Assembly (NCBI GenBank): GCA_027452245.1
Contig: DAIDGW010000029.1
Coordinates: 1 to 64,000 of the forward strand
Origin: Acidobacteriaceae bacterium
Lineage (GTDB): Bacteria; Acidobacteriota; Terriglobia; Terriglobales; Acidobacteriaceae
Direction: 5' to 3'
DNA: 64,000 nt
Positions 42,905-63,841 of the stretch are shown here, piece by piece (the stretch's first letter is position 1; each line of letters starts with the position of its first letter). A model generated the notes under the pieces. It saw nothing but the letters and a program-made list of their open reading frames with translations, was not told where the DNA came from and made no database searches. Both the position numbers and the translations under genes were made by a program.

Positions 42905-43249
42905 ATGGCAATGTTACAAAAATCGGAAAACATTGAATTGCAAATAGATGCGGGAAACTCGTCAGGACTGACCGAAAGTACGCCGGTGGTGCGATCGAAA
43001 GCGGTGGTTGCGCGGGAGATGGGGGGCGAGACGCTAATCATTCCCATCCGCGGCCATGTTGGGGATCTGGCGTCGATCTACAGCTTCAACCATACGGGAT
43101 CGCTGATCTGGAAGTTGTTGCAGCAGCCGAGCACGCCGGGCGAATTGGCGGATAGGGTGGCGCGGGAGTATGGCGTGGAGCGGAATGAGATTAAAGGGGA
43201 CGTGGAGAAATTTGTGGCGGAGATGAAGCAGGCGGGGTTGGTGGAGTAA
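42905..43249 (+). CDS. PqqD-family peptide-binding protein (RiPP recognition element)
   Basis: 114 residues. An N-terminal extension of about 30 residues precedes a PqqD-like winged-helix fold: VVAREMGGETLIIPIRGHVGDLASIYSFNHTGSLIWKLLQQPSTPGELADRVAREYGVERNEIKGDVEKFVAEMKQAGLVE. Such proteins bind the leader of a ribosomal peptide and present it to a radical SAM maturase. A second ATG two codons later (42911) is an alternative start. It is the first gene of the cluster containing the maturase, the precursor, an HPr-kinase-like ATPase and a giant protease. PQQ biosynthesis genes are absent. Confidence 0.9.
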   Translation: MAMLQKSENIELQIDAGNSSGLTESTPVVRSKAVVAREMGGETLIIPIRGHVGDLASIYSFNHTGSLIWKLLQQPSTPGELADRVAREYGVERNEIKGDVEKFVAEMKQAGLVE

Positions 43250-43352
43250 GGAGTTGCCGGACTTCACAGAGAGCGAAATGCGCAGATCCTTCGTCGCGCG
43301 GGATGCTTCTCAGGGTGACAGGGGAAGTGAATAGATTGGCAGAGGCAGGAGC

Positions 43353-44618
43353 ATGGGGCAGATAGCGTACAAAGATTTCAGCGCGGAGATGCATGGGCGG
43401 TTCGCGGAGAAGCGGACGCCGCTGCAGGTGTCGATTGAAGTGACGCGCCGGTGTCCGCTGGAGTGTTTGCACTGCTACAACAACCTGCCGATGGCGGATA
43501 TGGAAGCGAAGCGGCGCGAGTTGACGAAGGAAGAGCATTTCCGGTTGCTGGATGAACTGGCGGAGATGGGGACGTTCTGGGTGCTGTTCACGGGCGGGGA
43601 GATTTTCGCGCGCAAGGATTTTCTGGAGATTTACACGTACGCGAAGCAGAAAGGATTCCTGATTACGCTGTTTACGAACGGCACGATCATGACGGAGGAG
43701 ATTGCGGATTATCTGCGGGAGTGGCCTCCGTTTGCGATAGAGATCACGATGTACGGGCGGACGCGCGAGACGTACGAAGCGCTGACGGCGATTCCCGGTT
43801 CGTATGACCGATGCTTGCGGGGGATCCGGCTGCTGAAAGAGCGCGGCTTGCCGCTGAAGTTGAAGACGGTGGCAACCAGCGTAAACAAGCACGAAGTACT
43901 GGCCATGAAGCAATTCGCGGAAGAAGATCTGGGAGTGGAGTTCAAGGCGGATGCACAGATTAATCCTCGGGTGGATTGCTCGCAAAGTCCGCTAGCGGTG
44001 CGGTTGACGCCGGAAGAGGTCGTCGCGCTGGACATGAGTTCGCCGAAGGTGCGGGCAGAGTACGTGAAGCTGGCGGCGCGCGACCGGGAGAATCCGCCGA
44101 ACCTGTCGCAGGTGGATACGGTGTATTCCTGCGGGGGCGGAATGAATTCGTTTGCGGTGAATGCGTACGGGGAGATCGGCATCTGCGTGATCTCGCAGCA
44201 GGAGACGTTCAGCATCCGCGAGGGCGGAGCGAAGCAGGTATGGGAAAGATCGCTGGCGCACCTGCGGTCGAGGAAGCGTAGGCGTTTGACGAAGTGCCAG
44301 GAGTGCAAGATCCAGTCGTTGTGCGCGATGTGTCCGGCGAATGGCGAACTGGAAAATGGGGACCGGGAAAGCCCGGTGTCATTCTTGTGCGAGGTGGCGC
44401 ACTTGCGGGCATTGGCGGTGGGGGCGGAGGTTCCTGTGCATGGAGAGTGTGAATTCTGCGCCGACGGAGCGAAGCACAAGGAAGTAACGGAGTCGGCGCG
44501 GCGCATCCGGGAAAAAGAAGTAAATGTCGAGAACTGGGTGGGACCGCAGCACATTCTGCCGATCCTGAACAACAACACCGGGGTAACGGGAGGATGCGGG
44601 AGTTGCGGCAATCACTGA
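43353..44618 (+). CDS. Radical SAM / SPASM peptide maturase
   Basis: 421 residues. The radical SAM [4Fe-4S] motif is CPLECLHC (Cys34, Cys38, Cys41). The triose-barrel segment includes GTFWVLFTGGEIFARKDFLEIY. The C-terminal SPASM domain has extra Cys ligands (YSCGGG, GEIGIC, CQECKIQSLCAMC and others). SPASM maturases crosslink Cys or other residues in ribosomal peptides (sactipeptide/ranthipeptide-type chemistry) using auxiliary clusters. The tail reads TGVTGGCGSCGNH, itself core-like. It follows PqqD by 103 bases; the precursor gene starts 14 bases after its stop. Confidence 0.94.
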   Translation: MGQIAYKDFSAEMHGRFAEKRTPLQVSIEVTRRCPLECLHCYNNLPMADMEAKRRELTKEEHFRLLDELAEMGTFWVLFTGGEIFARKDFLEIYTYAKQKGFLITLFTNGTIMTEEIADYLREWPPFAIEITMYGRTRETYEALTAIPGSYDRCLRGIRLLKERGLPLKLKTVATSVNKHEVLAMKQFAEEDLGVEFKADAQINPRVDCSQSPLAVRLTPEEVVALDMSSPKVRAEYVKLAARDRENPPNLSQVDTVYSCGGGMNSFAVNAYGEIGICVISQQETFSIREGGAKQVWERSLAHLRSRKRRRLTKCQECKIQSLCAMCPANGELENGDRESPVSFLCEVAHLRALAVGAEVPVHGECEFCADGAKHKEVTESARRIREKEVNVENWVGPQHILPILNNNTGVTGGCGSCGNH

Positions 44619-44632
44619 GCGGGGTGAGTTTG

Positions 44633-44809
44633 ATGAATGAATTACGGGACAAAGCGGCCGAAAAAAAAGTCTATGAGCCGCCGGAATTGAAGACGATCAG
44701 TTTGCGTCCGGAAGAAGCGGTGCTCGGACATTGCAAGAACTCTTCGGGGGGCGGGCCGACGCCGAATTGCGGAATCCTGCTGGGCGGATGCCAGACGATT
44801 GGTTCGTAG
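44633..44809 (+). CDS. Putative RiPP precursor peptide with three cysteines
   Basis: 58 residues. The leader has KKVYEPPELKTISLRPEEAV, which resembles the YxxPxL leader element bound by PqqD-type proteins. It is followed by a Gly/Ser/Cys core: LGHCKNSSGGGPTPNCGILL then GGCQTIGS (Cys34, Cys46, Cys53). The open frame starts 13 codons earlier inside the maturase tail; the ATG at 44633 has GGGTGAG upstream. Size, position between the maturase and the kinase, and the Cys-rich tail make it the likely substrate. No homologue could be checked. Confidence 0.75.
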   Translation: MNELRDKAAEKKVYEPPELKTISLRPEEAVLGHCKNSSGGGPTPNCGILLGGCQTIGS

Positions 44810-44828
44810 GCGCGCGGCGTGAGGGCGG

Positions 44829-45794
44829 ATGAACGGACTTTGTGCAGAGTCGATCCCGGCCACAGGCTGGAGGATGCGGTGGGTGTTGCGCAATCAGTTG
44901 AGGATCGGCGGCATTACAGTGAGCCTGAATAGCGATCGCGCCAGCGATCTTGAATTTCTGCCGCCACTGGCGGCGTTCCAAATCAAAGCAGTGAAATCCG
45001 ACATCGATATCCAGATTCGCTGGGTGGAGAAGTTAGAACCGGCTTTATCACGGCAAGTATTCGATTCGGGCGCAGTATGGCGATTGTATGAGCATGCAGG
45101 GGAATTGCAGTTTGATTTTTGCGTGCCGATGCTGGGCGAGAGTCCGTATAAGCGCTTGCGGGTAGATGAGAATTTTCGTTCCGCCGAGTTGCTGATGAGC
45201 AAGGAAGCGCTGCAGGGACATGCGGAGGCGGCGGCGCCGATTGCGTATCCGCTGGACGAGTTGCTGATTGCGCACCGGCTGACGCGGGAGCGTGCGATTG
45301 AATTGCACAGCTGCGGAGTGATCGCGCCGGACGGGACGGCGACATTATTTGTGGGACACTCGGGCGCGGGAAAGAGTACGACGGCGCGGTTGTGGAGCGA
45401 GGAGCCGGGGGTGAACATTTTGAGCGATGACCGCGTGATCGTGCGGGAGGAGAGAACGCAGATCGCTCGACTCGCTCGGGATGAGCGAGAGGATTCGATA
45501 CGGATGTATGGGACGCCGTGGCACGGAGACGCGCAGTTCGCGCAGGCGGCGAGCGCGGCGCTGACGAGGATCTGCATACTGGAGCAGGGGCGCGGGAATG
45601 TGCTGACACGACTAGGGCGCGGCGAGGCCGTGGGAGAACTTTTTGCGCGCAGCTTTGTACCGCTTCATCGGCACAAATATGTTGAATCCGCATTGAGTTT
45701 TTTGGAAGACCTGGTTACTTCAGTTCCGTGCTATCGCTACCGCTTCGAACCCAACCGCGGGGCGGTGGAAACCCTGCTGAACTTCCATGACTGA
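44829..45794 (+). CDS. HPr-kinase-like ATPase
   Basis: 321 residues. The C-terminal half has the Walker A GHSGAGKST (176-184), the acidic pair ILSDDRVIV (Asp200-Asp201) and a conserved ELHSCGV segment before it, matching HprK/P-type kinases that recur in RiPP clusters (peptide Ser/Thr kinases of lasso-type loci, for example). The N-terminal half (about 140 residues) has no recognised domain. It could phosphorylate the precursor or a protein partner. Its stop overlaps the start of the giant protease frame by 8 bases. Confidence 0.85.
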   Translation: MNGLCAESIPATGWRMRWVLRNQLRIGGITVSLNSDRASDLEFLPPLAAFQIKAVKSDIDIQIRWVEKLEPALSRQVFDSGAVWRLYEHAGELQFDFCVPMLGESPYKRLRVDENFRSAELLMSKEALQGHAEAAAPIAYPLDELLIAHRLTRERAIELHSCGVIAPDGTATLFVGHSGAGKSTTARLWSEEPGVNILSDDRVIVREERTQIARLARDEREDSIRMYGTPWHGDAQFAQAASAALTRICILEQGRGNVLTRLGRGEAVGELFARSFVPLHRHKYVESALSFLEDLVTSVPCYRYRFEPNRGAVETLLNFHD

Positions 45795-48700
45795 AAGCCC
45801 GGACTCGCGGCTATTTGCAGACTTCAGCCGCGATTTACTGAGGCGAGGACTGAGCGTGCGATTCCAGGCACGCGGAGCCAGCATGTCGCCGACAATCCGT
45901 GACGGCGAGACGGTCGTGGTTACCCCCGTAATCATGAGGGAATTACAGAAGGGGACTATCGTCTTAACGGAATCTAAGGAAGGTTTTCGACTTCACCGGT
46001 TGGTGATTGCGGACCACCAACAAGACCGGTTCGTGACCCGCGGTGATTGCGGCAAGGAAAACGATCTTCCTGTAAGTCGAGAACAGATTCTAGGAATTGC
46101 CCGGGCCAAGGAAGTACAGATAGGGCGAAAAGTCGTGCGAGCAGAATTCAAAACAATCCATGGTTACGTGCTGCGGGGAGCGGCGCGGGCGCAGAGGATC
46201 GCGCTCAAGTGGCTGCGCCCGACGGGAAAAGGTGCGGGGATGAAGATGCTCATCCTCTTAATGCTTGCAGCGGCGGCAGGCTTGCCGAGCCAGGCGCAGG
46301 TGGCGGTCGATGGCAGCACGAGTACCGCGACGACTATCACGGGACCGAACCCAGTCACATTCAATTTCAACCACACGACGGCGGCGACCGCGAACCGGGT
46401 GCTGATCGTCGGGGTGTCGATCAATCTCACGCAGGGCACGGGCACGGCGGTATCGGGGATTACATACGGCGGGACACCTCTGACGCTGATTGGAGCGCAC
46501 AACGACGCGGGCAGCACGCGGCGGGTGGAGCTGTGGTATCTGCTGGCGCCGGCGAGCGGAACGAAGGCGATTGCGGTTACGGTAAGCAATCCGGCCAACA
46601 CGGCAGTAGGAGTGGTGGCGGGGGCGACGACATTTACTGGTGTGGATCAGACGGTTCCGCTGGGAACGTTTGTTTCGGCGGACGGCGCGGCCGGCACATA
46701 TTCGCAACTGGATGTACCCAGCGTGGTGAACGGGATGATTCTTGACACGCTGGCGATTGATGGAGGAACCGCGGCCACGGTTTCCGGACCGCAGGTGCAG
46801 CAGTGGAACCTGAATACTGGGGCGAATGCAAACCAGGACGCGAGCGGAGTGGCGAGCAGCCGGACGGGCGCTCCGAGCGTTCCGGTATCGGAAGTTTTCA
46901 GCGGGAATACGAATTGGGCCCTGGGAGCGATTTCAGTGAATCCGTCGACGGCCGATATTGCGGTGAGCACGAGCGTGGCGACGGTGCAGGTGGGGAGCAA
47001 TTCGACCTACAACATCACGGTGACGAACAACGGTCCATCAGCGGCGAATAATGTCACGCTGACGGACACGCTGGCGCCGGGAGTGACGTTCGTTTCCGCG
47101 ACGCCGAGCGCGGGAACAACATGCTCGGGAACAGGGCCGCTTAACTGTACATTGCCGAGTTCGCTGGCGAGCGGGGGTACGGCAACGATTTCTGTTGTAG
47201 TAAATGCGGCAACATCGGGAGCGTACTCGAACACGGCAACGGTAACGGACTCGGGGACTCCGCCGGACCCGAACACGGGAAATAACACGTACGTCTCGGT
47301 GGCTACGGTGCAGTCGGTGGCGTGCGGAACTACGTCGCAGGCGGCTCCGGGCGGAACCCTGTCGGGAACGATCAATACATATTATCCGGGGACGGCGAGC
47401 GTCAGCGCGGGAGCGACCTCGATTTCGATTGGAGCGGGGACCGGGGCGGGACAAGCGATTGCGGCGGGCAATCTGCTGCTGGTCATTCAGATGCAGGATG
47501 CCGCGATTAACACTTCCAATAACGTTGCATACGGAAATGGCAGCACGGGGGCGGGATTCACGTCGCTGAATAGTGCAGGGAATTATGAATTTGTCACCGC
47601 CACAAATGCGGTGGGCACGGGCGGGGGCACGCTGAACATTGCGGGATCGGGCAACGGTGGAGGGCTGGTTTTCAATTACACCGCGGCGGCAGCGACCTCG
47701 ACGAAGGGGGCGAGCACGTTTCAAGTGGTGGTGGTGCCGCAGTACACGACTGCAACGCTGAGTTCAGGGCTGACAGCGCAGGCATGGAACGGGTCCACAG
47801 GCGGCGTACTGGCACTGGATGCGTCGGCCACACTGAGCCTGGGTGGCGCGACCGTGGCGGTGGATGGATTGGGATTCCGTGGGGCTGCGGGCATGCAGTT
47901 AACGGGAGCGGGAGGAGGATCTCCCAATGACTTTCTGGCAGCGGCTCCGGGAACCTATGCAGGAAATCCGGAAGCGGGGTTCGATGCTGCCAAGGGTGAA
48001 GGAGTTGCGGGAACGCCGCTGTGGTTGGAATTGGGCGGGACCTATGTGAACAGCAACAGTGACTATCCGAGTGGAGGGGCGGCGGACGGAAGCATGGCGC
48101 GCGGAGCTCCGGGCAATGGCGGCGGCGGCGGCACGGACGCCGACCCGGCAAACAACGACCAGAACTCCGGAGGAGGCGGTGGAGGCAATGGCGGGGCGGG
48201 CGGGTTTGGCGGCGACTCGTGGAGTACCAATCTCAGCACAGGCGGCGAAGGCGGGGGAGCATTTCCGGCGACCATCAATCGCATCTCCATGGGTGGTGGA
48301 GGTGGAGCAGGAACGCGTAACAATTCCGATGGCGACGACCAAGCGAGCAGCGGTTCTGCAGGCGGAGGCATCATCATCATCCGCGCATATGGGCTGAGCG
48401 GAACTGGAACGCTGACAGCAAACGGAGCGGCCGCATACAACAATACGGCAAACGACGGGGGTGGCGGCGGAGGGGCGGGGGGAACCATCGTGGTGCTTTC
48501 CGCAAATGGCGGGGAAGGCGGCCTGACGCTGCAATCGAATGGGGGCAACGGCGGGGACGCCTGGCAAGCGAACCCCTTTACCCTGGGCAAACGTCATGGC
48601 CCCGGCGGCGGCGGCGGTGGCGGAGCAGTTTTTGTTTCCGGAGCGCCAGCCAGCATCAGCGTGAACGGCGGTGTGAATGGGACGACCGAAACTCCGGGAG

Positions 48701-51700
48701 TGCCTTATGGCTCGACTTCCGGCGGACTGGGTGTGAGCGCGACAAACGCGTCGCTGACCTCTACGTCGGGGACCCAGTCGGGCGCCCAGTGCACTCCGGA
48801 CATGACACTGGGAAAGAGCCACGTGGGCAATTTTGTGCGTGGTTCTACCGCCAATTACACGATTCCGGTGCAGAACGTGAGCGCGTATGGCCCCTCGGTG
48901 GGCGTGGTTACGGTGGACGACACGCTGCCGCCGGGGCTGACTCCGAGCAGTGCTACGGGAACGGGGTGGAGTTGCTCGGTGGCATCGCAGACACTGAGTT
49001 GCGTGCGTTCCGACAGTTTGGCCGCGGGCGCTTATTATCCGTCGATCACGGTTACCGCGAATGTGCAGCAGTCGGCGCCATCCAGCGTGACCAATACCGC
49101 GTATGTGTCCGGCGGGGGCGAGGTGAATCTCGTAAATGATAGCGCGACCGATGTGGCGAACGTGATATCGAGCGCGGATCTGAGCATGGCGGAAACGGCG
49201 TCGCCGAATCCGGTGGCGGCGGGCAGCAATATTACATACACGCAAGTTTTGACCAACAACGGTCCCAGCGCCGCGGACAACGCGACGATTGTGGCTCCGG
49301 TGCCGGCGAACACGACATTCGTCTCGATGGCCGCCCCTGCAGGATGGACCTGCCTCGATCCTACAGTCGGATCGATTGGCAACGTGGTTTGCAGCACATC
49401 AAACCTGGCCGCGAGCGCGGGCGTGAACACAGCCAGCTTCTCGATGATGGTCAAGGTAAATGCCAGCGTGGCGAATGGGACGACGATTACGGGAACGGTG
49501 ACGGCGAGTTCCTCCACCAGCGATCCGAACGCGAGCAACAACACAGCGATGGCGAGCACGCTGGTGGGAACGACGACGCAGGCGGAGATGGTAGTCACCA
49601 ACATGGCTTCGCCGAACCCGGTGGTGGCGGGGAGCAACATCACGTACACCCAGGTGGTCACGAACGTTGGCAGTGTGACGGCGACGAGTCCGACATTCAC
49701 GGAAAATATACCGGCAAATACGACGTTTCAATCCATCTCAGTGCCGGGAGGCACGAGTTGTACGACGCCCCCGGTGGGCGGAACGGGAACGATCAGTTGC
49801 ACATCGCCAAATGCTCCTGCGGGAACGAGCGGGACCGTGGTTCTGGTGGTACAAGTGGGGGCGGGAACGGCGAGCGGAACCGTCATCACCGATACCGCAA
49901 CGGTGACGTCCTCGAACCAGGCCTTCGGACCGAATTCGGCAACGGTAACCGATGTCGTGGCGAGCGGAACGCAGGCGGATCTTGCCTTGAGCACGGTGGC
50001 AACGCCGAGTTCGGTGTACGCGGGCAACAACATTACATATACGCAGACGATCACGAATAACGGTCCGGCGACGGCAACGAATGTGAGCTTCACGGAAGCG
50101 ACGCCGGCAAACACCACCTACCAATCGATTTCGACTCCAGCGGGTTGGAGTTGCACGACGCCGGCGGTGGGGGCGACGGGGACGATTACTTGTACAACGA
50201 CGAACCTGGCGGCTTCGGCGTCGGCGAACATGGTCATCACGATGGGAGTGGCTTCATCGGTGGGTAAGGGCCCAACGACTGCCACGTCAACGGTTTCGGA
50301 GACGGGAACCACGGATCCGAATCTCACGAACAACACGACGACCGTGGTGACGGATATTGCTGATCAATGCGCGCTGGTGGTGACCAACAGCGGAAATCCA
50401 AATACGGTGCTGGCTGGAAATAACATCACCTATACGCAAACCGTGATGAACAGCGGTCCGAGTAATTGCGCGAACGTGCAGTTCACGGAGGCGATTCCCG
50501 CACACACGACCTTATCTTCGTTTACGGGAGCGGCCGGCTGGAGTTGTACGACGACGCCTTCGATCAGTTGCACCAATGCGAGCCTGGCGCCTGGTGGAGC
50601 CACTACGTTTACGTTCGTGGCGGCGGTGAACGGCGGCACGGCGTCGGGAACAATCATCACCGACACCGATACGGCGACGACAACTACCACGGGAAGCACG
50701 CTGAATAACTCTGCGACCGTGAACACAACGGTGGGAGCGAATGGAACGGCGGATCTCAGCATCACGGACAGCGGAAGCCCGAATCCGGCGAGCGCTGGCG
50801 GCACAATCACGTTCACACAAGTGGTAGCAAACAACGGGCCATCGAATGCGCGAAGCGTAACCGTGACCGAGACCGTTCCGACGAACACCACCTTCTCTTC
50901 ACTGAGTGCAACGGGAGGCTGGACGTGCCGCGGGACGTCGCCTTACACTTGCACGCTCTTCAACTTCGCGGCGAATGCGACAGCTACGATCACGTTTGTA
51001 GTGACCGTAAGTCCAACGGATACAGCTGCGATTACGGATACAGCCAGTATCGCTTCGCGGTTCACGACCGATCCCAACACCTCGAACAATACGGCGACAG
51101 CGACCGTGCAGGTGGGCGATTCAGCGGACTTGTCGGTCACGATTACGGGAACGCCGGTTCCGGTGGAGGGCGGCGCGAATGTCACTTACACGCAAACGGT
51201 CACGAATGCGGGGCCGAGCACAGCAACGGGAGTAACGTTTGTAGAGTCAACTCCGCCGCATACGACCTTCGTATCGTTAACGCCGGTTCCCGCGGGATGG
51301 ACCTGCACGCTTCCGGCTGTGGGGACGCCTGGAACCATCCGCTGTACGAATCCAAGCCTTGCGACGGGCAACACGAGCTTCCCGCTGGTGCTGAAGGTCA
51401 CGGCAGGCACACCTCCGGGAACGACAATCACGCTGACGGGATCAGTGAGTTCGTCGACGAGCGACCCGAATACGAGCAATAACACCGCCAGTTTCACGGA
51501 CGTAGTAGCTACCAATACGGAAGCCGACCTGGTCGTGACGAACGTGGCAACGCCGACTTCAGTAGCTGCCGGCAGCAACGTGACGTACACGCAAAGCGTC
51601 AAGAACAATGGCCCGGCGGCAGCGGCCAGCGCGACCTTCAGCGAGACGACTCCGCCGAATACGACATTCCAATCTCTTACTGTACCTGCCGGATGGACGT

Positions 51701-54700
51701 GTACGAAGCCCGCAGTGGGAGGAACAGGAACGATCAGTTGTACGGATCCGAGTATGGCGCTGAATGCAACGGCGAACTTCACGGTGGTGCTGCAAGTGAA
51801 TGCGAATACGGCCCCGGGGACGAACATCTCCGAGACGGCGACGGCAACTGCCACAAATATTGTTCCGAACCTGACCACCAACAGTGCGACAGCAACCGTG
51901 GTGGTGGCAAACGCGAACGGCGCAGACGTCGCGATTGTGAAGACGGCATCGCCGAATCCGGTGTTGCAAGGGGATACGCTGACTTACACGCTGGCGGTTA
52001 CGAATAACGGTCCGGCGTCGGCGACGAACGTGACCGTGACGGACAGCCTGCCATCGTATGTGACCTATCTCTCGGCGCAGACAACGACAGGATCATGTTC
52101 GGAGGCGGGTGGAATGGTGACCTGTCTTCTGGGAACGATGGCCAGCGGCGATAACGAAACCGTTACCATCCTGACCACAGCCGGTACACCGGGAACAGTG
52201 TCGAACACGGCGACGGTCACGGCGGACCAGAGCGATCCCAACACGGGTAACAATTCCTCGACGCAGACCGAGACCATTGCTTTCTCCACTGCCGTGCAAC
52301 TGCAGTACTTCGTGGCGCAGGCCGGGAGAGACCAGAGTGGAGCGCAGCACGTGCTGCTGATATGGAAAACGGGAGAAGAGGAGCACAATCTCGGCTTCAA
52401 CGTGTACCGTCAAGTGGGCGAGAACGAAGTGAAAATCAATCCATCATTGGTTGCGGGCTCTGCTCTGCAAATGACGGGTGCGCTGCCGCAGCATATGGGG
52501 AAAACATATACGTGGATTGATGCCAACGCCCTCGTGGCAGGAGCGCAGTACTGGCTGGAGGACGTGAGCGTCGGCGGCGGACGGCAGATGCATGGGCCGA
52601 TTTCGGTACAGGGCAATTTCGCATCGGCCATGGACGCGAAGCCAATGGCTTCGCACACGCTGGCCCAGTTGAATCAGGCGCAGGCTCCGGCGATCAGCGG
52701 AGCGCTGAGCCATCATGTGCAGGCGATGCCGCAACTGAACGCCTCGCAAGCGCAGTTGAAGAAGCAGTTTGAACTGGCCGCGCACCCCGGGGTGAAGATT
52801 CTGGTGAACCGCGAGGGCTGGTACCAGGTGACGCAGCCGCAACTGGTGCAGGCAGGAATGAATCCGAATGTGGATCCGGCGACGCTGCATTTGTATGCGG
52901 AGGCGGTGGAGCAGCCGATCCAGATTGTCGGAGCGACTGCGGGAGCAGGAGGATTCGGGCCCCAGGCCGCGATCCGATTCTACGGGACGGGAATCGATAC
53001 GCCCTACTCGGGGAACCGTGTTTACTGGCTGAACTGGGGAGACGGAAGTGGCGCGCGAATGAGCCGTTTACCGGTTTTGACGGGATCGAACCAGCCCCCG
53101 GAGAATTATCCGGATGCGGTGATCCTGGAACAGCACACGACCTATTTCGGAGCGTTGCTGACCACGAACGGGAACAATTTCTTCGGATCGATCGTAACCT
53201 CGACGCCACTTGACCAGGTTCTGGACGTTCCGCATCTGGACCGGAAAGCGAGCTTCGGCGGGCAACTGGATGTGGCGTTACAAGGGGCCATTAGCGGAAT
53301 GCCGCACGACGTCAGCGTGTCGCTGAACGGGACGAACCTGGGCGACGTAAATTTCACAGGACAGGATGTGGGTAAACTTTCCGTGAGCATTCCCGAGGGA
53401 ATGCTGCAGGAAGGACCGAACACCGTGACGCTAACCGCTCAAGATGGCGATTATGACGTCAGCCTTGTGCAGGCAATCAAGATTTCCTATCCGCACAGGT
53501 TCATGGCCGACGCGGATCAATTGAGGTTTACCGGCTTGCCGGGAGAAGAAGTTCGCATTGGGGGATTCCAGGCGCAACCCGCGGCGGTGGTGGATATCAC
53601 CCTGCCGAATCATCCGGTGATGCTGACGCCTGAGGTGACGCTGAATAACGGCACGTACGAAATGGCGGTACAGATTCCGTGGGGCAACTGGAGCGATGGA
53701 GATTCTCTGCACACGGTGCTGGCCGTGGCCGGCGATCGAATTGGAAGCGTGGTGGCGGTGGTGCCGAATCATCCTTCGCAGTGGCACGCCGAACGGACGG
53801 GCGCGCCGATTGTCATGATCTCGCATGAGAATTTCGTGGGCGCGTTGCCGCCGTTAGTGAAGGCGCACAGGGCACAGGGACAGGAATCGAAGGTTGTGCT
53901 GATCAATGACCTGTACGACGAATATAACTTCGGAGAGCGCAGTCCCTACGTAATCCGGCAGTTCCTGCAGGGGGCAAGCCAGCACTGGCGCGTCAAGCCG
54001 CAATATCTGCTGTTGAACGGACGTGCGTCATTGGATCCGCGCAACTACCTGGGATTTGGGGAACTGGATTTTGTTCCCACCATGATCATTCCAGCTTCGA
54101 CGCTGATGACGGCTTCGGATGACTGGTTCTCGGATTTTTCGAACACAGGAGTGCCGACACTGGCAACCGGACGCCTGCCGGTGAGCACGCTGGATGATGC
54201 AAGCCTGGTGGTGGGGAAAATCGCGGGCTACGAGACATCGTCCAGCACGGGATCGTGGGCTTCGCAGGCAGTCATGGTGGCCGATACCAACGATGCCAGC
54301 GACGATTTCACGGGCTATACGAAGAATGTGCAGGCGCAATTGCCGAAAAGCCTGAAGCCTACGGACATCTTCACGGGAAATGTGGGGGTGAATGTGGCGC
54401 GCCAGCAGATCGTGGCGGATATCAATTCAGGAGCTTTGCTGGTGAATTATTTTGGCCATGGATCGGAAGAACAGTGGTCTGGCTCGGATATTTTCGATGA
54501 CACTGCGGCGAATTCACTGACGAATGGATCCGAGTTGCCGGTGTTTCTAATCATGGATTGTTTGAACGGGTATTTTCAGGATGTATATGCGCAGCCTCTG
54601 GGAGTGACGATTCTGCTGGCCCCGACGGGCGGAGGGGTGGCTGTCCTAGCCTCAAGCGGATTGAATCAGGCGCTGCCGCAGGCGGCGATGGACCAGTACA

Positions 54701-54858
54701 TCGTGCAGGATGCGTTCAGCATGGCGCTCGGCGACGCGATTGTGAAAGCGAAGTCGCAGATCACAGATCCGGGGACCCGTGAAACCTACATCCTGTTTGG
54801 CGACCCGGCGATGAGGATCAAAGGGAGCACGAAGTCGCAGCCGTCTGCCACCCGATAG
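45787..54858 (+). CDS. Giant frame: S24/S26 peptidase-like domain + signal peptide + DUF11 repeats + C25 cysteine protease
   Basis: 3023 codons. Residues 1-151 form an S24/S26 peptidase-like domain (GASMSPTIRDGE with Ser32; FRLHRLV with His70; VTRGDCGKENDLPV). At 152 a Met begins a signal peptide (MLILLMLAAAAGLPSQAQ) with AAAAGG seven bases upstream of the ATG at 46240, so the exported product may be a separate 2872-residue protein. It then has one DUF11 repeat (about 391-503), a Gly-rich region (about 508-1000), nine more DUF11 repeats (about 1005-2158), and a C25 (gingipain-type) domain from about 2670. The likely catalytic His is 2891 (YFGHGSEEQW) and Cys 2925 (IMDCLNGYF). No sorting signal is seen at the end. 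Confidence 0.88.
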   Translation: MTESPDSRLFADFSRDLLRRGLSVRFQARGASMSPTIRDGETVVVTPVIMRELQKGTIVLTESKEGFRLHRLVIADHQQDRFVTRGDCGKENDLPVSREQILGIARAKEVQIGRKVVRAEFKTIHGYVLRGAARAQRIALKWLRPTGKGAGMKMLILLMLAAAAGLPSQAQVAVDGSTSTATTITGPNPVTFNFNHTTAATANRVLIVGVSINLTQGTGTAVSGITYGGTPLTLIGAHNDAGSTRRVELWYLLAPASGTKAIAVTVSNPANTAVGVVAGATTFTGVDQTVPLGTFVSADGAAGTYSQLDVPSVVNGMILDTLAIDGGTAATVSGPQVQQWNLNTGANANQDASGVASSRTGAPSVPVSEVFSGNTNWALGAISVNPSTADIAVSTSVATVQVGSNSTYNITVTNNGPSAANNVTLTDTLAPGVTFVSATPSAGTTCSGTGPLNCTLPSSLASGGTATISVVVNAATSGAYSNTATVTDSGTPPDPNTGNNTYVSVATVQSVACGTTSQAAPGGTLSGTINTYYPGTASVSAGATSISIGAGTGAGQAIAAGNLLLVIQMQDAAINTSNNVAYGNGSTGAGFTSLNSAGNYEFVTATNAVGTGGGTLNIAGSGNGGGLVFNYTAAAATSTKGASTFQVVVVPQYTTATLSSGLTAQAWNGSTGGVLALDASATLSLGGATVAVDGLGFRGAAGMQLTGAGGGSPNDFLAAAPGTYAGNPEAGFDAAKGEGVAGTPLWLELGGTYVNSNSDYPSGGAADGSMARGAPGNGGGGGTDADPANNDQNSGGGGGGNGGAGGFGGDSWSTNLSTGGEGGGAFPATINRISMGGGGGAGTRNNSDGDDQASSGSAGGGIIIIRAYGLSGTGTLTANGAAAYNNTANDGGGGGGAGGTIVVLSANGGEGGLTLQSNGGNGGDAWQANPFTLGKRHGPGGGGGGGAVFVSGAPASISVNGGVNGTTETPGVPYGSTSGGLGVSATNASLTSTSGTQSGAQCTPDMTLGKSHVGNFVRGSTANYTIPVQNVSAYGPSVGVVTVDDTLPPGLTPSSATGTGWSCSVASQTLSCVRSDSLAAGAYYPSITVTANVQQSAPSSVTNTAYVSGGGEVNLVNDSATDVANVISSADLSMAETASPNPVAAGSNITYTQVLTNNGPSAADNATIVAPVPANTTFVSMAAPAGWTCLDPTVGSIGNVVCSTSNLAASAGVNTASFSMMVKVNASVANGTTITGTVTASSSTSDPNASNNTAMASTLVGTTTQAEMVVTNMASPNPVVAGSNITYTQVVTNVGSVTATSPTFTENIPANTTFQSISVPGGTSCTTPPVGGTGTISCTSPNAPAGTSGTVVLVVQVGAGTASGTVITDTATVTSSNQAFGPNSATVTDVVASGTQADLALSTVATPSSVYAGNNITYTQTITNNGPATATNVSFTEATPANTTYQSISTPAGWSCTTPAVGATGTITCTTTNLAASASANMVITMGVASSVGKGPTTATSTVSETGTTDPNLTNNTTTVVTDIADQCALVVTNSGNPNTVLAGNNITYTQTVMNSGPSNCANVQFTEAIPAHTTLSSFTGAAGWSCTTTPSISCTNASLAPGGATTFTFVAAVNGGTASGTIITDTDTATTTTTGSTLNNSATVNTTVGANGTADLSITDSGSPNPASAGGTITFTQVVANNGPSNARSVTVTETVPTNTTFSSLSATGGWTCRGTSPYTCTLFNFAANATATITFVVTVSPTDTAAITDTASIASRFTTDPNTSNNTATATVQVGDSADLSVTITGTPVPVEGGANVTYTQTVTNAGPSTATGVTFVESTPPHTTFVSLTPVPAGWTCTLPAVGTPGTIRCTNPSLATGNTSFPLVLKVTAGTPPGTTITLTGSVSSSTSDPNTSNNTASFTDVVATNTEADLVVTNVATPTSVAAGSNVTYTQSVKNNGPAAAASATFSETTPPNTTFQSLTVPAGWTCTKPAVGGTGTISCTDPSMALNATANFTVVLQVNANTAPGTNISETATATATNIVPNLTTNSATATVVVANANGADVAIVKTASPNPVLQGDTLTYTLAVTNNGPASATNVTVTDSLPSYVTYLSAQTTTGSCSEAGGMVTCLLGTMASGDNETVTILTTAGTPGTVSNTATVTADQSDPNTGNNSSTQTETIAFSTAVQLQYFVAQAGRDQSGAQHVLLIWKTGEEEHNLGFNVYRQVGENEVKINPSLVAGSALQMTGALPQHMGKTYTWIDANALVAGAQYWLEDVSVGGGRQMHGPISVQGNFASAMDAKPMASHTLAQLNQAQAPAISGALSHHVQAMPQLNASQAQLKKQFELAAHPGVKILVNREGWYQVTQPQLVQAGMNPNVDPATLHLYAEAVEQPIQIVGATAGAGGFGPQAAIRFYGTGIDTPYSGNRVYWLNWGDGSGARMSRLPVLTGSNQPPENYPDAVILEQHTTYFGALLTTNGNNFFGSIVTSTPLDQVLDVPHLDRKASFGGQLDVALQGAISGMPHDVSVSLNGTNLGDVNFTGQDVGKLSVSIPEGMLQEGPNTVTLTAQDGDYDVSLVQAIKISYPHRFMADADQLRFTGLPGEEVRIGGFQAQPAAVVDITLPNHPVMLTPEVTLNNGTYEMAVQIPWGNWSDGDSLHTVLAVAGDRIGSVVAVVPNHPSQWHAERTGAPIVMISHENFVGALPPLVKAHRAQGQESKVVLINDLYDEYNFGERSPYVIRQFLQGASQHWRVKPQYLLLNGRASLDPRNYLGFGELDFVPTMIIPASTLMTASDDWFSDFSNTGVPTLATGRLPVSTLDDASLVVGKIAGYETSSSTGSWASQAVMVADTNDASDDFTGYTKNVQAQLPKSLKPTDIFTGNVGVNVARQQIVADINSGALLVNYFGHGSEEQWSGSDIFDDTAANSLTNGSELPVFLIMDCLNGYFQDVYAQPLGVTILLAPTGGGVAVLASSGLNQALPQAAMDQYIVQDAFSMALGDAIVKAKSQITDPGTRETYILFGDPAMRIKGSTKSQPSATR
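48801..52270 (+). repeat. Nine consecutive DUF11 repeats in the giant protein
   Basis: Nine beta-sandwich units of about 125-135 residues each begin with a D/E-hydrophobic start (DLSMAE, EMVVTN, DLALST, CALVVT, DLSITD, DLSVTI, DLVVTN, DVAIVK and the first DMTLGK) and share TYTQ-x-VTNNGPSxA, TTFxSL, GWTC and SDPNxxNNTA. The DNA is also similar between units, e.g. the GGCAGCAAC-ATTACATACACGCA word. A tenth unit lies apart upstream near 46.95 kb. Confidence 0.88.
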
Positions 54859-61393: not shown

Positions 61394-63841
61394 TTAATGA
61401 GCGGGGTCGAGTTCGAGGCTGTGAGTTTTCGCTGCCTGAACTGCTTGCTCAGAAAAGGGCAAAGTGAATGTCGTGCCGTGATACCACGCGGGCCACTGGT
61501 CCAAGTAGTTTGGACTCAGCAGGTTCCCGCTCTCTCCGGTAACAAGGTTCAGAGTGGATTGATCGAGGTCCGCAAGGTTGGCGGTGAAGCGTTCGGAAGG
61601 ACCGTGATGCCGGGTCACGGCTTTCACCGTGTATCCGCTGCCAGACTGTTCCTGAATGCCGGGGCCGGTCCAGCGGCTGAGCAGAGGAATTCGTCCAAGC
61701 ACCGGATTTTGAATGTCGACGGCATTGAACTTCCCCCAACGCCAGGAAGTCAGATTTTTTGGAGTGCCGGGGGAGGAAACGGCAGTCTCGACAGCGGCAG
61801 TCAGCAGTTCATCGTAATTCGGGTACTTCGCGGGAAGCCACTGAGGTGGATGGTGGAGAAGAACATGCTCCAGCCACACGGAGTGCATCAGCCACTGATA
61901 GGTCTTCCAGTTTAATGTTTCTTGTTGCTTAACCGGATCAGCGGGGGCCGGTCCCAAGAGGGGTTCAAGAATCAGGCGTTGCAGTTGTTGGACCGACACT
62001 TCGGTGATGGTGGGTGCGGCTGAAGAGGCGTCCATCCGCCCGTCCCAATTCCGCAGAATATCGGCGGCCTGTTTCGCGCGCGCAGTCGGATGGGACGCAT
62101 GATCTACGGCATAGACGAAGCGTTCGGCGGCAAACAGATCGGGGTCGGAGTGAATGTCATCCTGCAATTCCAGCATGTCAGCGGGGGCGAATTTCCGGCC
62201 AGATTCCAATACGTGATAAATGCGAGCCGCGCGCCAGGGAGCTTCCCACTCCACACTGATCGAGTACGGATACTTATTGGGCGTAATTCGTGCATTGGCG
62301 GTGGCAATGATCCCGGAAGGCGGGTTGTAGATGGAAGGCAGTTTGTCGAAGGGAATATAGCCGGTCCATTCATGCGCATCATCGATTCCGCTGACTGGCA
62401 GACTGCCGTCGCCGGAGGCGCGAATGGGGACTTTTCCGGTGGCTTGATAACCGATGTTGCCGTCGACGTCGGCATAGACGACGTTCTGGCCGGGGGCGTC
62501 GAGCAGGGAAAAGGCCTTTCGGAATTCGTCCCAGTTCTGCGCCGTGTCAGCATCGAAAAAAGGAATGTGGAGACCGTCGTAGAGGGTCCAGCGTAAGGCT
62601 AAGGGTCTGGCTTCGCCCGGAAACAAATCGGTGACGATCGGGCCGTGACGCGTAATCTTGACGTCAAGGGTGACGTCGGGCTTTCCCTGGACGTGGATAA
62701 CTTCGGTACGGTGCTCGGGCTGAGCCCACCCCTGGGGCGTCTGGTATTCGCCGTTGGCATTGAAATTTTCGATGTAGAGATCGGTGACGGTGGGCCCGAT
62801 ATTGGTAAATCCCCAGGCAATGCGCCGGTTGTGCCCGACGATGACGAAAGGCATGCCCGGCAGGGTCACACCGGCGACATCCAGATTGGGTGCGCGGAGG
62901 TGCGCTTCATACCAGAGGTTGGGCATCTGATGCTGCAGGTGCATGTCGTTCGAGAGAAGCGGCTTGCCGGTGACGGTGTGCTCGCCCGAGACGACCCAGT
63001 CGTTGGAGCCATTGACTGGAACCGCGTCCTGACCGGTGAAGCTGAAAGGTGTGAGGTGATGAGTTACGGAGTTATCCGAGCCTTCCTCATCGTCGGAGTC
63101 GTCGCCGTTATTCGGTTGGCTCAGGTCCTGGCGCATGACAGTGGGAGGACGATCGTGCCAGGAGTGGTTCACGAACAGGTCTGCGGTCATCTGCGGCCCG
63201 AGTTTGGCAAGGATCTTCTCATGCGCGAGGATGTCTTTGCAGTAGTAATAGTTCAGATCCTTGACCATCTGGTTGGCGATGACGACCGAATCGACCGGCG
63301 TCCAAGGCTTGGGCGAGTAACGCAGTACCCTGAACTCGAGCGGAAGACGGTCCTGGTGAGTTTTGATGAAGGCATTGACACCACGGGAGTAATCTTCGAA
63401 GGACGCGCGGTCGCGAGGAGTGGCCAGGAGCAGTGAATGTTCGGCCGCGGCCCGCAGGCCGAGGATGCGCTGCTCGCGGTCAAATTGGAGGGTGTCTTCG
63501 CCGAGAACTTCTGAAAGTTGCCCGGAGGCGACGCGGCGCATGATGTCCATTTCCCAAAGGCGGTCTTGCGCGGTGACATAACCCTGGGCGAAAAAGACAT
63601 CGTCGAGAGAATTGGCTTGGATGGTAGGAACGCCGTGAGCATCGCGGATGACGATTACCGGGCCTGAGAGGCCGGTGACTGAGGTTCTGCCGTCGAGTTG
63701 CGGCAGCGCGGCTTTGGCGATGTGGTAGGCATATCCGGCCACGAGTGCGACGATCAGAAGCAAACCGAGCGCACTATATAAAGAAATGCGCGCTGCCAAG
63801 GAGCGGCGGGAAACCGGAAGGGTTGAAAGGGAAGTGGTCAT
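61394..63841 (-). CDS. Penicillin acylase family protein (Ntn-hydrolase)
   Basis: 815 residues. An N-terminal membrane/signal segment (ISLYSALGLLLIVALVAGYAYHI) is followed by the alpha chain (PVIVIRDAHGVPTIQANSLDDVFFAQGYVTAQDRLWEMDIMRR). An autocleavage site at GSNDWVVSG would place the beta-chain nucleophile at Ser279. The beta chain continues with HLQHQMPNLWYEAHL and PFVIVGHNRRIAWGFTN. It hydrolyses an amide such as an acyl-homoserine lactone, aculeacin or beta-lactam side chain; the actual substrate is not evident. An insert rich in Asp/Ser (GDDSDDEEGSDNS) stands in the spacer before the cleavage site. Single gene. Confidence 0.95.
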   Translation of the reverse strand: MTTSLSTLPVSRRSLAARISLYSALGLLLIVALVAGYAYHIAKAALPQLDGRTSVTGLSGPVIVIRDAHGVPTIQANSLDDVFFAQGYVTAQDRLWEMDIMRRVASGQLSEVLGEDTLQFDREQRILGLRAAAEHSLLLATPRDRASFEDYSRGVNAFIKTHQDRLPLEFRVLRYSPKPWTPVDSVVIANQMVKDLNYYYCKDILAHEKILAKLGPQMTADLFVNHSWHDRPPTVMRQDLSQPNNGDDSDDEEGSDNSVTHHLTPFSFTGQDAVPVNGSNDWVVSGEHTVTGKPLLSNDMHLQHQMPNLWYEAHLRAPNLDVAGVTLPGMPFVIVGHNRRIAWGFTNIGPTVTDLYIENFNANGEYQTPQGWAQPEHRTEVIHVQGKPDVTLDVKITRHGPIVTDLFPGEARPLALRWTLYDGLHIPFFDADTAQNWDEFRKAFSLLDAPGQNVVYADVDGNIGYQATGKVPIRASGDGSLPVSGIDDAHEWTGYIPFDKLPSIYNPPSGIIATANARITPNKYPYSISVEWEAPWRAARIYHVLESGRKFAPADMLELQDDIHSDPDLFAAERFVYAVDHASHPTARAKQAADILRNWDGRMDASSAAPTITEVSVQQLQRLILEPLLGPAPADPVKQQETLNWKTYQWLMHSVWLEHVLLHHPPQWLPAKYPNYDELLTAAVETAVSSPGTPKNLTSWRWGKFNAVDIQNPVLGRIPLLSRWTGPGIQEQSGSGYTVKAVTRHHGPSERFTANLADLDQSTLNLVTGESGNLLSPNYLDQWPAWYHGTTFTLPFSEQAVQAAKTHSLELDPAH

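Follow-up and report, generated by a model that had tools for sequence, protein, structure and literature searches.

A stretch of 64,000 nucleotides from a soil bacterium of the family Acidobacteriaceae (assembly GCA_027452245.1, contig DAIDGW010000029.1; the whole stretch is called the window below) very likely carries, judging from its genes, an operon for a ribosomally synthesized and post-translationally modified peptide (RiPP), with a PqqD-family protein, a radical SAM/SPASM maturase, a short precursor peptide, an HPrK-like kinase and an S24/S26 peptidase, the last of these fused to a giant protease of family C25. We propose, with a probability of roughly 0.6, that this operon makes a crosslinked, C-terminally phosphorylated peptide and supplies an exported PorU/gingipain-like C25 enzyme for it; the C25 protein is likely a functional partner of the operon.

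Sequence shows the gene set and how well it is conserved, a precursor family, conserved catalytic residues, linkage of operon type and fusions of S24 with C25; from these we infer a series of chemical steps and their order, a cleavage site, export and a role for C25. The PqqD protein would hold the Y-x-x-P-x-L leader and bring the precursor to the radical SAM/SPASM maturase; this enzyme would join at least one conserved cysteine (the first is nearly always in a C-K pair) to a neighbouring residue. The HPrK-like kinase would put a phosphate on the C-terminal serine, and the S24/S26 peptidase would cut off the leader, perhaps at the conserved EEAVLG. The C25 protein would be exported via the signal segment behind the S24 domain and, once at the cell surface or beyond it, would either make a last cut in the mature peptide or pass it to a surface acceptor in the manner of PorU. 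Such a system would add a many-phyla peptide family to the RiPPs, would extend C-terminal serine phosphorylation beyond lasso peptides and would be a recurrent partnership of a RiPP operon with a gingipain/PorU-type enzyme.

The operon and its precursor family

A maturase search (E <= 1e-50) across 297 genomes of the phylum gave matches in 40 of them and none in the one other listed genome of the genus or in the 19 listed genomes of the family, so that the operon is patchy in its distribution. A pattern scan of genome contigs supplied further loci (L071-L150 are the best 80 of at least 544 relatives, the closest of these 80 being a metagenome-assembled genome (MAG) of Acidobacteria subdivision 1 (gp1), at 76%), and profile hidden Markov models (HMMs) were built from the collected loci. 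Five of the 115 mapped loci were dropped, their maturase being at least 98% identical to that of another locus, which left 110 non-duplicate loci from many phyla, known here almost only from MAGs. These were sorted, roughly, into 86 loci with a single radical SAM gene (single-rSAM) and 24 with several (multi-rSAM); L135, in the latter class, probably has a single radical SAM gene that gave two hits, and for L102 and L105 the second hit is ~5-7 kb off. Many contigs end early; separate counts are also given for 27 of the single-rSAM loci, which have full flanks (5 kb or more upstream, 9 kb or more downstream).

The initial annotation had proposed a RiPP locus, which is supported by the recurrence of PqqD, maturase and precursor across many phyla: PqqD was found in 77 and the precursor in 80 of the 86 single-rSAM loci, and both in all 27 with full flanks. 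Its association of maturase and precursor with the kinase and the S24 peptidase also holds in most places elsewhere (kinase in 75 of 86 and 26 of 27; S24 in 69 of 86 and 24 of 27). Because the profiles were built from these loci, such counts measure recurrence, not independent discovery, and related loci within them are not independent events. Twenty control stretches of 19.5 kb, taken at round positions, gave no PqqD, HPrK, precursor or C25 hit and hold one S24 hit and one radical SAM hit in total; since the controls are nearly empty and the same set recurs across many phyla, the gene set goes beyond chance.

The precursor (MNELRDKAAEKKVYEPPELKTISLRPEEAVLGHCKNSSGGGPTPNCGILLGGCQTIGS, 58 aa) combines a YEPPEL leader motif, LRPEEAVLG-H-CK, three cysteines and a C-terminal serine, and belongs to a family with a fixed plan: a Y/W-xxP-x-L leader, ...EEAVLx-x-CK..., usually three cysteines and a C-terminal serine. 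Across 101 precursors (E < 1e-5) the leader columns hold a basic pair, Y (83) or W (18), an invariant P (101/101) and then mostly L, I or V, and the later columns read L-x-P-E-E-A-V-L, often a small residue, C (99), K (88) and mostly two more cysteines. The CK motif is present in 90 and exactly three cysteines in 73, and the YxxPxL-type leader and three-cysteine tail that had been picked out in this one peptide are features of the family. Among 101 complete precursors (E <= 1e-4), 94 end in serine. Profile searches of the precursor had been proposed as a check: our own HMM has hits in 107 of the 117 sources searched (duplicates included), and no Pfam or NCBIfam model matches the window precursor. 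Among the papers listed, and as judged by titles and the beginnings of abstracts, no publication on the precursor family or on a link between C25 proteases and RiPPs was found; subscription papers were mostly outside this scope, and the gap is no proof that none exists. That the precursor keeps so rigid a plan across such distances suggests a lasting function and not that of a fast-evolving antibiotic.

In the maturase, the CxxxCxxC motif (C34, C38 and C41) and seven further cysteines (C260, C278, C315, C318, C324, C327 and C346) are invariant in 15 aligned sequences. Its C-terminal tail reads GGCGSCGNH (44589-44615); of 85 single-rSAM maturases, 21 have a CxxC within their final 16 residues, and in L091, L092 and L134 this looks more like the SPASM-region CxYC motif lying close to a shorter C-terminus than like such a tail. 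The PqqD-family protein is expected to bind the precursor leader. The S24 domain conserves its serine and histidine (SMxP and HR at >=90% in 40 aligned domains), and for a cut after VLG a simple pattern fits 84 of the 101 precursors (position -3 mostly V, L or I; position -1 G or A in 50), so the putative site appears compatible with a signal-peptidase-like rule. Seven loci (L059, L061, L062, L124, L128, L140 and L141) have at least three radical SAM hits and a kinase, mostly with PqqD and S24; some of them carry several precursors, and the contig of L124 is labelled Methanomicrobiales.

The putative tail kinase and likeness to known systems

By sequence the window kinase is weakly HPrK-like (20.2 bits, against an HprK_rel_A cut-off of 200), and its matches in the PDB are weak, two of the seven being HPr kinases at E about 0.7. 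A regular-expression check for the motif missed many kinases and was replaced by an alignment, which took in 95 of the 99 loci where a kinase was hit and left out four with short kinases; it gives His in 95/95, Lys in 95/95, Asp in 89/95 (6 Glu) and a second Asp in 81/95 (14 Glu). The AlphaFold model (predicted local distance difference test score (pLDDT) 92.2) is folded from end to end like the phosphoenolpyruvate (PEP) carboxykinases (best Z 13.6, 248 aligned, root mean square deviation 5.0), a fold that HPrK shares; the 50 matches listed by Foldseek and by VIA-align are PEP carboxykinases nearly throughout, with no solved HPr kinase among them. With motif and predicted fold in agreement, we regard the kinase as HPrK-like despite its weak sequence score.

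According to one published description (PMC9266682), PadeK phosphorylates the C-terminal serine of its precursor, lasso tail kinases share a His-Lys-Asp-Asp motif, and the C-terminal serine is conserved to an extreme degree wherever a lasso cluster has a kinase of this kind. C-terminal phosphorylation is the best prediction for the kinases studied here, because they keep this motif, and the C-terminal serine of the precursor is likely phosphorylated by the HPrK-like kinase. In four loci labelled Chloroflexota (L108, L109, L110 and L118) the precursor lacks the C-terminal serine and the kinase has E-D-Q instead of D-D-R, a joint loss that is a hint and not proof, since it may be a single event. 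In L140, one of two precursors lacks the serine and the kinase has E-D-R.

Among the closest known systems are the lasso peptide clusters of the paeninodin/pseudomycoidin type, with the kinases PadeK, ThcoK and PsmK and the nucleotidyltransferase PsmN. A Y-x-x-P leader is typical of lasso peptides, and the leader motif and the C-terminal serine are two marks common to our precursor family and the phosphorylated lasso peptides. Also in common are a PqqD-like RiPP recognition element (RRE; lasso B1), an NTP_transf_5 gene (within 14 kb in 41 of the 110 loci here) and, by the published description, an HPrK-like kinase with His-Lys-Asp-Asp and a conserved C-terminal serine (PMC9266682). Unlike lasso clusters, the locus has a radical SAM/SPASM enzyme, an S24/S26 peptidase, a cysteine-rich core and a C25 partner; no Pfam match to the lasso asparagine-synthetase-like cyclase or B2 protease was found among the operon and flanking proteins tested, and the PqqD protein lies below the cut-offs of the lasso B1 models (NF033536, 41.9/80 bits; NF033530, 37/70 bits).

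The SynChlorMet cassette comprises an HPrK-like ScmC with the radical SAM/SPASM enzymes ScmE and ScmF. The HPr-rel-A system and SynChlorMet, both from NCBIfam, have an HPrK-like protein in common with the locus, to which HPr-rel-A adds the PqqD-like and SynChlorMet the radical SAM/SPASM component; both HPr-rel-A components tested (HprK_rel_A and PqqD_rel_X, the latter at 16.5/35 bits) fall short of their cut-offs, and SynChlorMet is weighed next. A variant of this cassette is a very unlikely reading of the locus: the best NCBIfam matches of the maturase include ScmE, and ScmC matches kinases in two multi-rSAM relatives (at 36.5 and 57.9 bits), but all scores stay under the curated cut-offs (ScmE 96.6/400, ScmF 55.1/400 and, for the window kinase, ScmC 13.1/125 bits), as do those of ten proteins from three multi-rSAM relatives (L124, L128 and L140), and the locus has a single radical SAM gene and a precursor outside all NCBIfam models. 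With sactipeptide and ranthipeptide clusters it has in common a radical SAM/SPASM enzyme on a cysteine-containing precursor, and it differs from them in its kinase, S24 and C25 partners; the maturase scores far below the models AlbA (55.1/850 bits), StsB (82.6/625) and PapB (50.5/340), though its chemistry may still be of that kind. The parts are all of known types; the combination and its precursor family turned up in none of the sources searched.

Linkage, fold and possible role of the C25 protease

A C25 gene lies within 14 kb of the maturase in 42 of the 86 single-rSAM loci (17 of the 27 with full flanks), under labels of about eight phyla, compared with ~0.6-4% expected by chance (for 1-6 C25 genes in an assumed genome of 4.5 Mb). 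It is on the maturase strand in 40 of the 42 (p 4e-10 if the loci are independent), downstream in 25 and upstream in 15, and in 9 of 14 measured loci of the upstream type the C25 stop codon is 23-68 nt ahead of the PqqD match. The adjacency suggested at the outset is thus conserved, but C25 is not an obligatory member, and many C25 genes lie elsewhere. The labels of the C25-bearing single-rSAM loci, as deposited for MAGs, include Acidobacteria, Nitrospirae, Myxococcales, Actinomycetota, Anaerolineae, other Chloroflexota, Kiritimatiellia, Verrucomicrobia and Desulfobacterales/Desulfobulbaceae, although single labels may be wrong; Planctomycetota enters via L135, the one C25-bearing locus among the 24 multi-rSAM loci. 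The repeated presence beside the operon of a gene for a giant, probably exported C25 protease suggests cooperation of peptide and protease. In L088 two tandem C25 giants follow the precursor, and that stretch gave no hit for the kinase or for S24.

In the window and in L074, L077 and L079 the S24 domain and the protease are fused, and in all four a hydrophobic segment follows S24. Among 24 unfused C25 frames (three of them from loci dropped as duplicates) such a segment is found within the first 160 residues in 21, the others being L068, L109 and L135. An assembly error is unlikely to underlie the fusion, since three other genomes share it and the S24 frame also continues for 408-439 aa in L072 and L073; in L071 S24 is split over two frames. 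Seven bases before Met151 of the giant open reading frame (ORF) stands AAAAGG, so that the frame may yield either a single fused protein or, by possible internal initiation at Met151, two separate products.

The initial description of a gingipain-type protease joined to DUF11 repeats is sound: PF01364 scores 238 bits against a cut-off of 23, which places the protein in family C25, and PF01345 matches in 10 stretches. His562 and Cys596 of the C25 module are invariant in 24 aligned modules. The best fold match of the modelled module (694 residues, pLDDT 91.5) is latent PorU (6za2; E 7.9e-31, TM 0.57 by query length, 789 columns), followed by gingipains R and K, gingipain R also matching by sequence (E 3.1e-10). 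With PorU, the type IX sortase, it thus has in common the fold of the whole module and the catalytic His and Cys; unlike PorU, it has preceding DUF11 repeats and an S24 fusion, and the match stops at the catalytic domain (profile 5-733 of 1095), the PorU model NF033707 remaining under its cut-off (208.6/420 bits). A search for SprA gave no match in the bacterium's own genome, a control search likewise being without a match anywhere. That the C25 proteins are PorU-like sortases outside type IX secretion, attaching the crosslinked, tail-phosphorylated peptide to the envelope or to the DUF11 scaffold, strikes us as rather improbable; if true, the RiPP of several phyla would be a fixed part of the cell surface and not an antibiotic that is secreted.

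RiPP operons often contain proteases, the C25 dyad is intact, and the gene frequently stands directly before PqqD or after S24; the enzyme might then be the last maturation protease only, trimming the exported peptide while S24 has another role or serves as a back-up. We consider this doubtful, because S24 is found in 69 of 86 single-rSAM loci, many of them lacking C25, which makes leader removal independent of C25, and a multi-kb DUF11 scaffold would be odd for a trimming protease. The CK motif, moreover, is as common without C25 (34/38 precursors) as with it (36/41), and the idea that C25 is specific for the conserved CK was dropped on the same count. Radical SAM/SPASM maturation of a large enzyme is established for quinohemoprotein amine dehydrogenase (the model of that maturase gives the window maturase 60 bits against 453), and here C25 adjoins the maturase; but that the giant protein, and not the short ORF, is the substrate is hardly credible, since 80 of 86 loci have the short peptide, its leader plan rigid, as against 42 with C25.

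C25 genes are themselves frequent (104 of 297 phylum genomes, among the matches listed), and most lie away from maturase matches, again among those listed. We sampled 39 hand-picked stretches from the same phylum, mostly from the top of the matches listed and not found via the maturase, and added a stretch that continues G096; two stretches whose genomes hold known loci were set aside, L190 (from the opposite end of that G096 contig, which is probably circular) and L170 (G207, its operon cut by the contig end). A PqqD or HPrK hit was found in 13 of 38 C25 stretches and in 0 of 20 control stretches (Fisher p 0.002), with some C25 stretches short and hence biased against finding neighbours; for L154, L155 and L162 the sole evidence is a PqqD hit (E 3e-6 to 6e-4) 7-8 kb away. 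In a tree of 72 catalytic domains (37 adjoining the precursor family, 12 accompanied by other genes of this kind, L170 and L190 among them, and 23 with none), the labels of the 37 and the 12, the two classes compared, change 8 times, at least five changes being forced by supported branches; 10 of 500 shuffles were as low, and the labels are weakly clustered.

Several points weigh against a partnership and against the proposed chemistry. C25 is absent from 10 of the 27 full-flank single-rSAM loci and from 23 of the 24 multi-rSAM loci (10 of 11 with full flanks), and is thus dispensable for making the peptide. No single dedicated C25 clade was found in the tree, where operon-less proteins stand among operon-linked ones (L167 with L037 and L038; L151 with L087). 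Seven of 101 precursors lack the C-terminal serine, those of L095 and L134 end in Thr beside a standard kinase motif, and the four E-D-Q loci are related. Peptidase_S24 (19.9/23.3 bits) and SPASM (18.3/21.5 bits) lie below their Pfam cut-offs in the window, and the recurrent genes include no transporter, though no search aimed at transporters was made. The frequency of C25 genes, their absence from full-flank loci and the lack of one clade would also fit a hitch-hiking neighbour, common C25 genes and the operon gathering in the same islands, but this is highly improbable in view of the excess over chance, the strand bias, the direct adjacency, the S24 fusion in four genomes and the spread over about eight phylum labels, and an independent neighbour is disfavoured.

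The link may extend beyond this precursor family, because L154 and L171 pair C25 with PqqD and NTP_transf_5 and have no detected radical SAM gene; this is possibly another C25-linked peptide system. Their PqqD (L154:8465-8953 and L171:4896-5414) is of a different type (VYDLxRHKAHCLN) and directly adjoins the C25 genes.

Locus layout and neighbouring genes

All five ORFs of the locus are on the plus strand, and the serial arrangement described initially stands; S24 and C25, there taken for separate overlapping genes, are one open frame of 3023 aa (45787-54858, +). The last three genes had been given overlaps of 4-20 bases, of which a single one of 8 bases remains, between the HPrK stop and the start of the giant ORF and the only one in the locus; 19 bases separate the precursor from the HPrK-like gene.

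Features of the probable RiPP locus in the window
Feature	Position	Strand	Evidence
PqqD-family RRE protein, 114 aa	42905..43249	+	PF05402 62.6 bits (Pfam)
Radical SAM/SPASM maturase, 421 aa	43353..44618	+	PF04055 74.7 bits; alignment of 15 sequences
Precursor peptide, 58 aa, ATG at 44633	44633..44809	+	own precursor HMM, 2.9e-18 in the window
HPrK-like kinase, 321 aa	44829..45794	+	conserved motif; AlphaFold model
S24/S26 signal-peptidase-like domain, residues 1-110 of the 3023-aa ORF	45787..46116	+	sigpep_I_arch 34.2 bits, cut-off 51.85
Hydrophobic signal/anchor segment MKMLILLMLAAAAGLPSQAQ	46237..46296	+	inside the 3023-aa ORF
DUF11/CARDB-type repeats	46297..52773	+	PF01345 519 bits, 10 stretches
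AgmC-N-like Gly-rich region within the repeats	47320-48654		NF047640 106 bits, cut-off 275
PorU/gingipain-type module	52774..54858	+	PF01364 238 bits; model pLDDT 91.5
C25 catalytic domain, end of the module	53812-54819	+	catalytic His and Cys present

Genes for NTP_transf_5 and Wzz-type chain-length proteins are found near several C25-less loci (L050-L054, L058, L095, L101 and others), where the peptide may be linked to exopolysaccharide loci, and L101 has an S24–NTP_transf_5 fusion. The idea that C25 and NTP_transf_5 exclude each other was rejected, as 11 single-rSAM loci carry both. In L093 an ABC-type ORF follows S24.

The flanks of the operon in the window seem unrelated to it, with SOR/SNZ, a glycosyltransferase, a PfkB kinase and a DeoR regulator upstream, and a polyprenyl synthetase, a homocysteine methyltransferase/MTHFR, an alcohol dehydrogenase and a penicillin amidase downstream. 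The penicillin amidase-family protein (676 bits) is encoded on the minus strand at 61394-63841, close to the window end.

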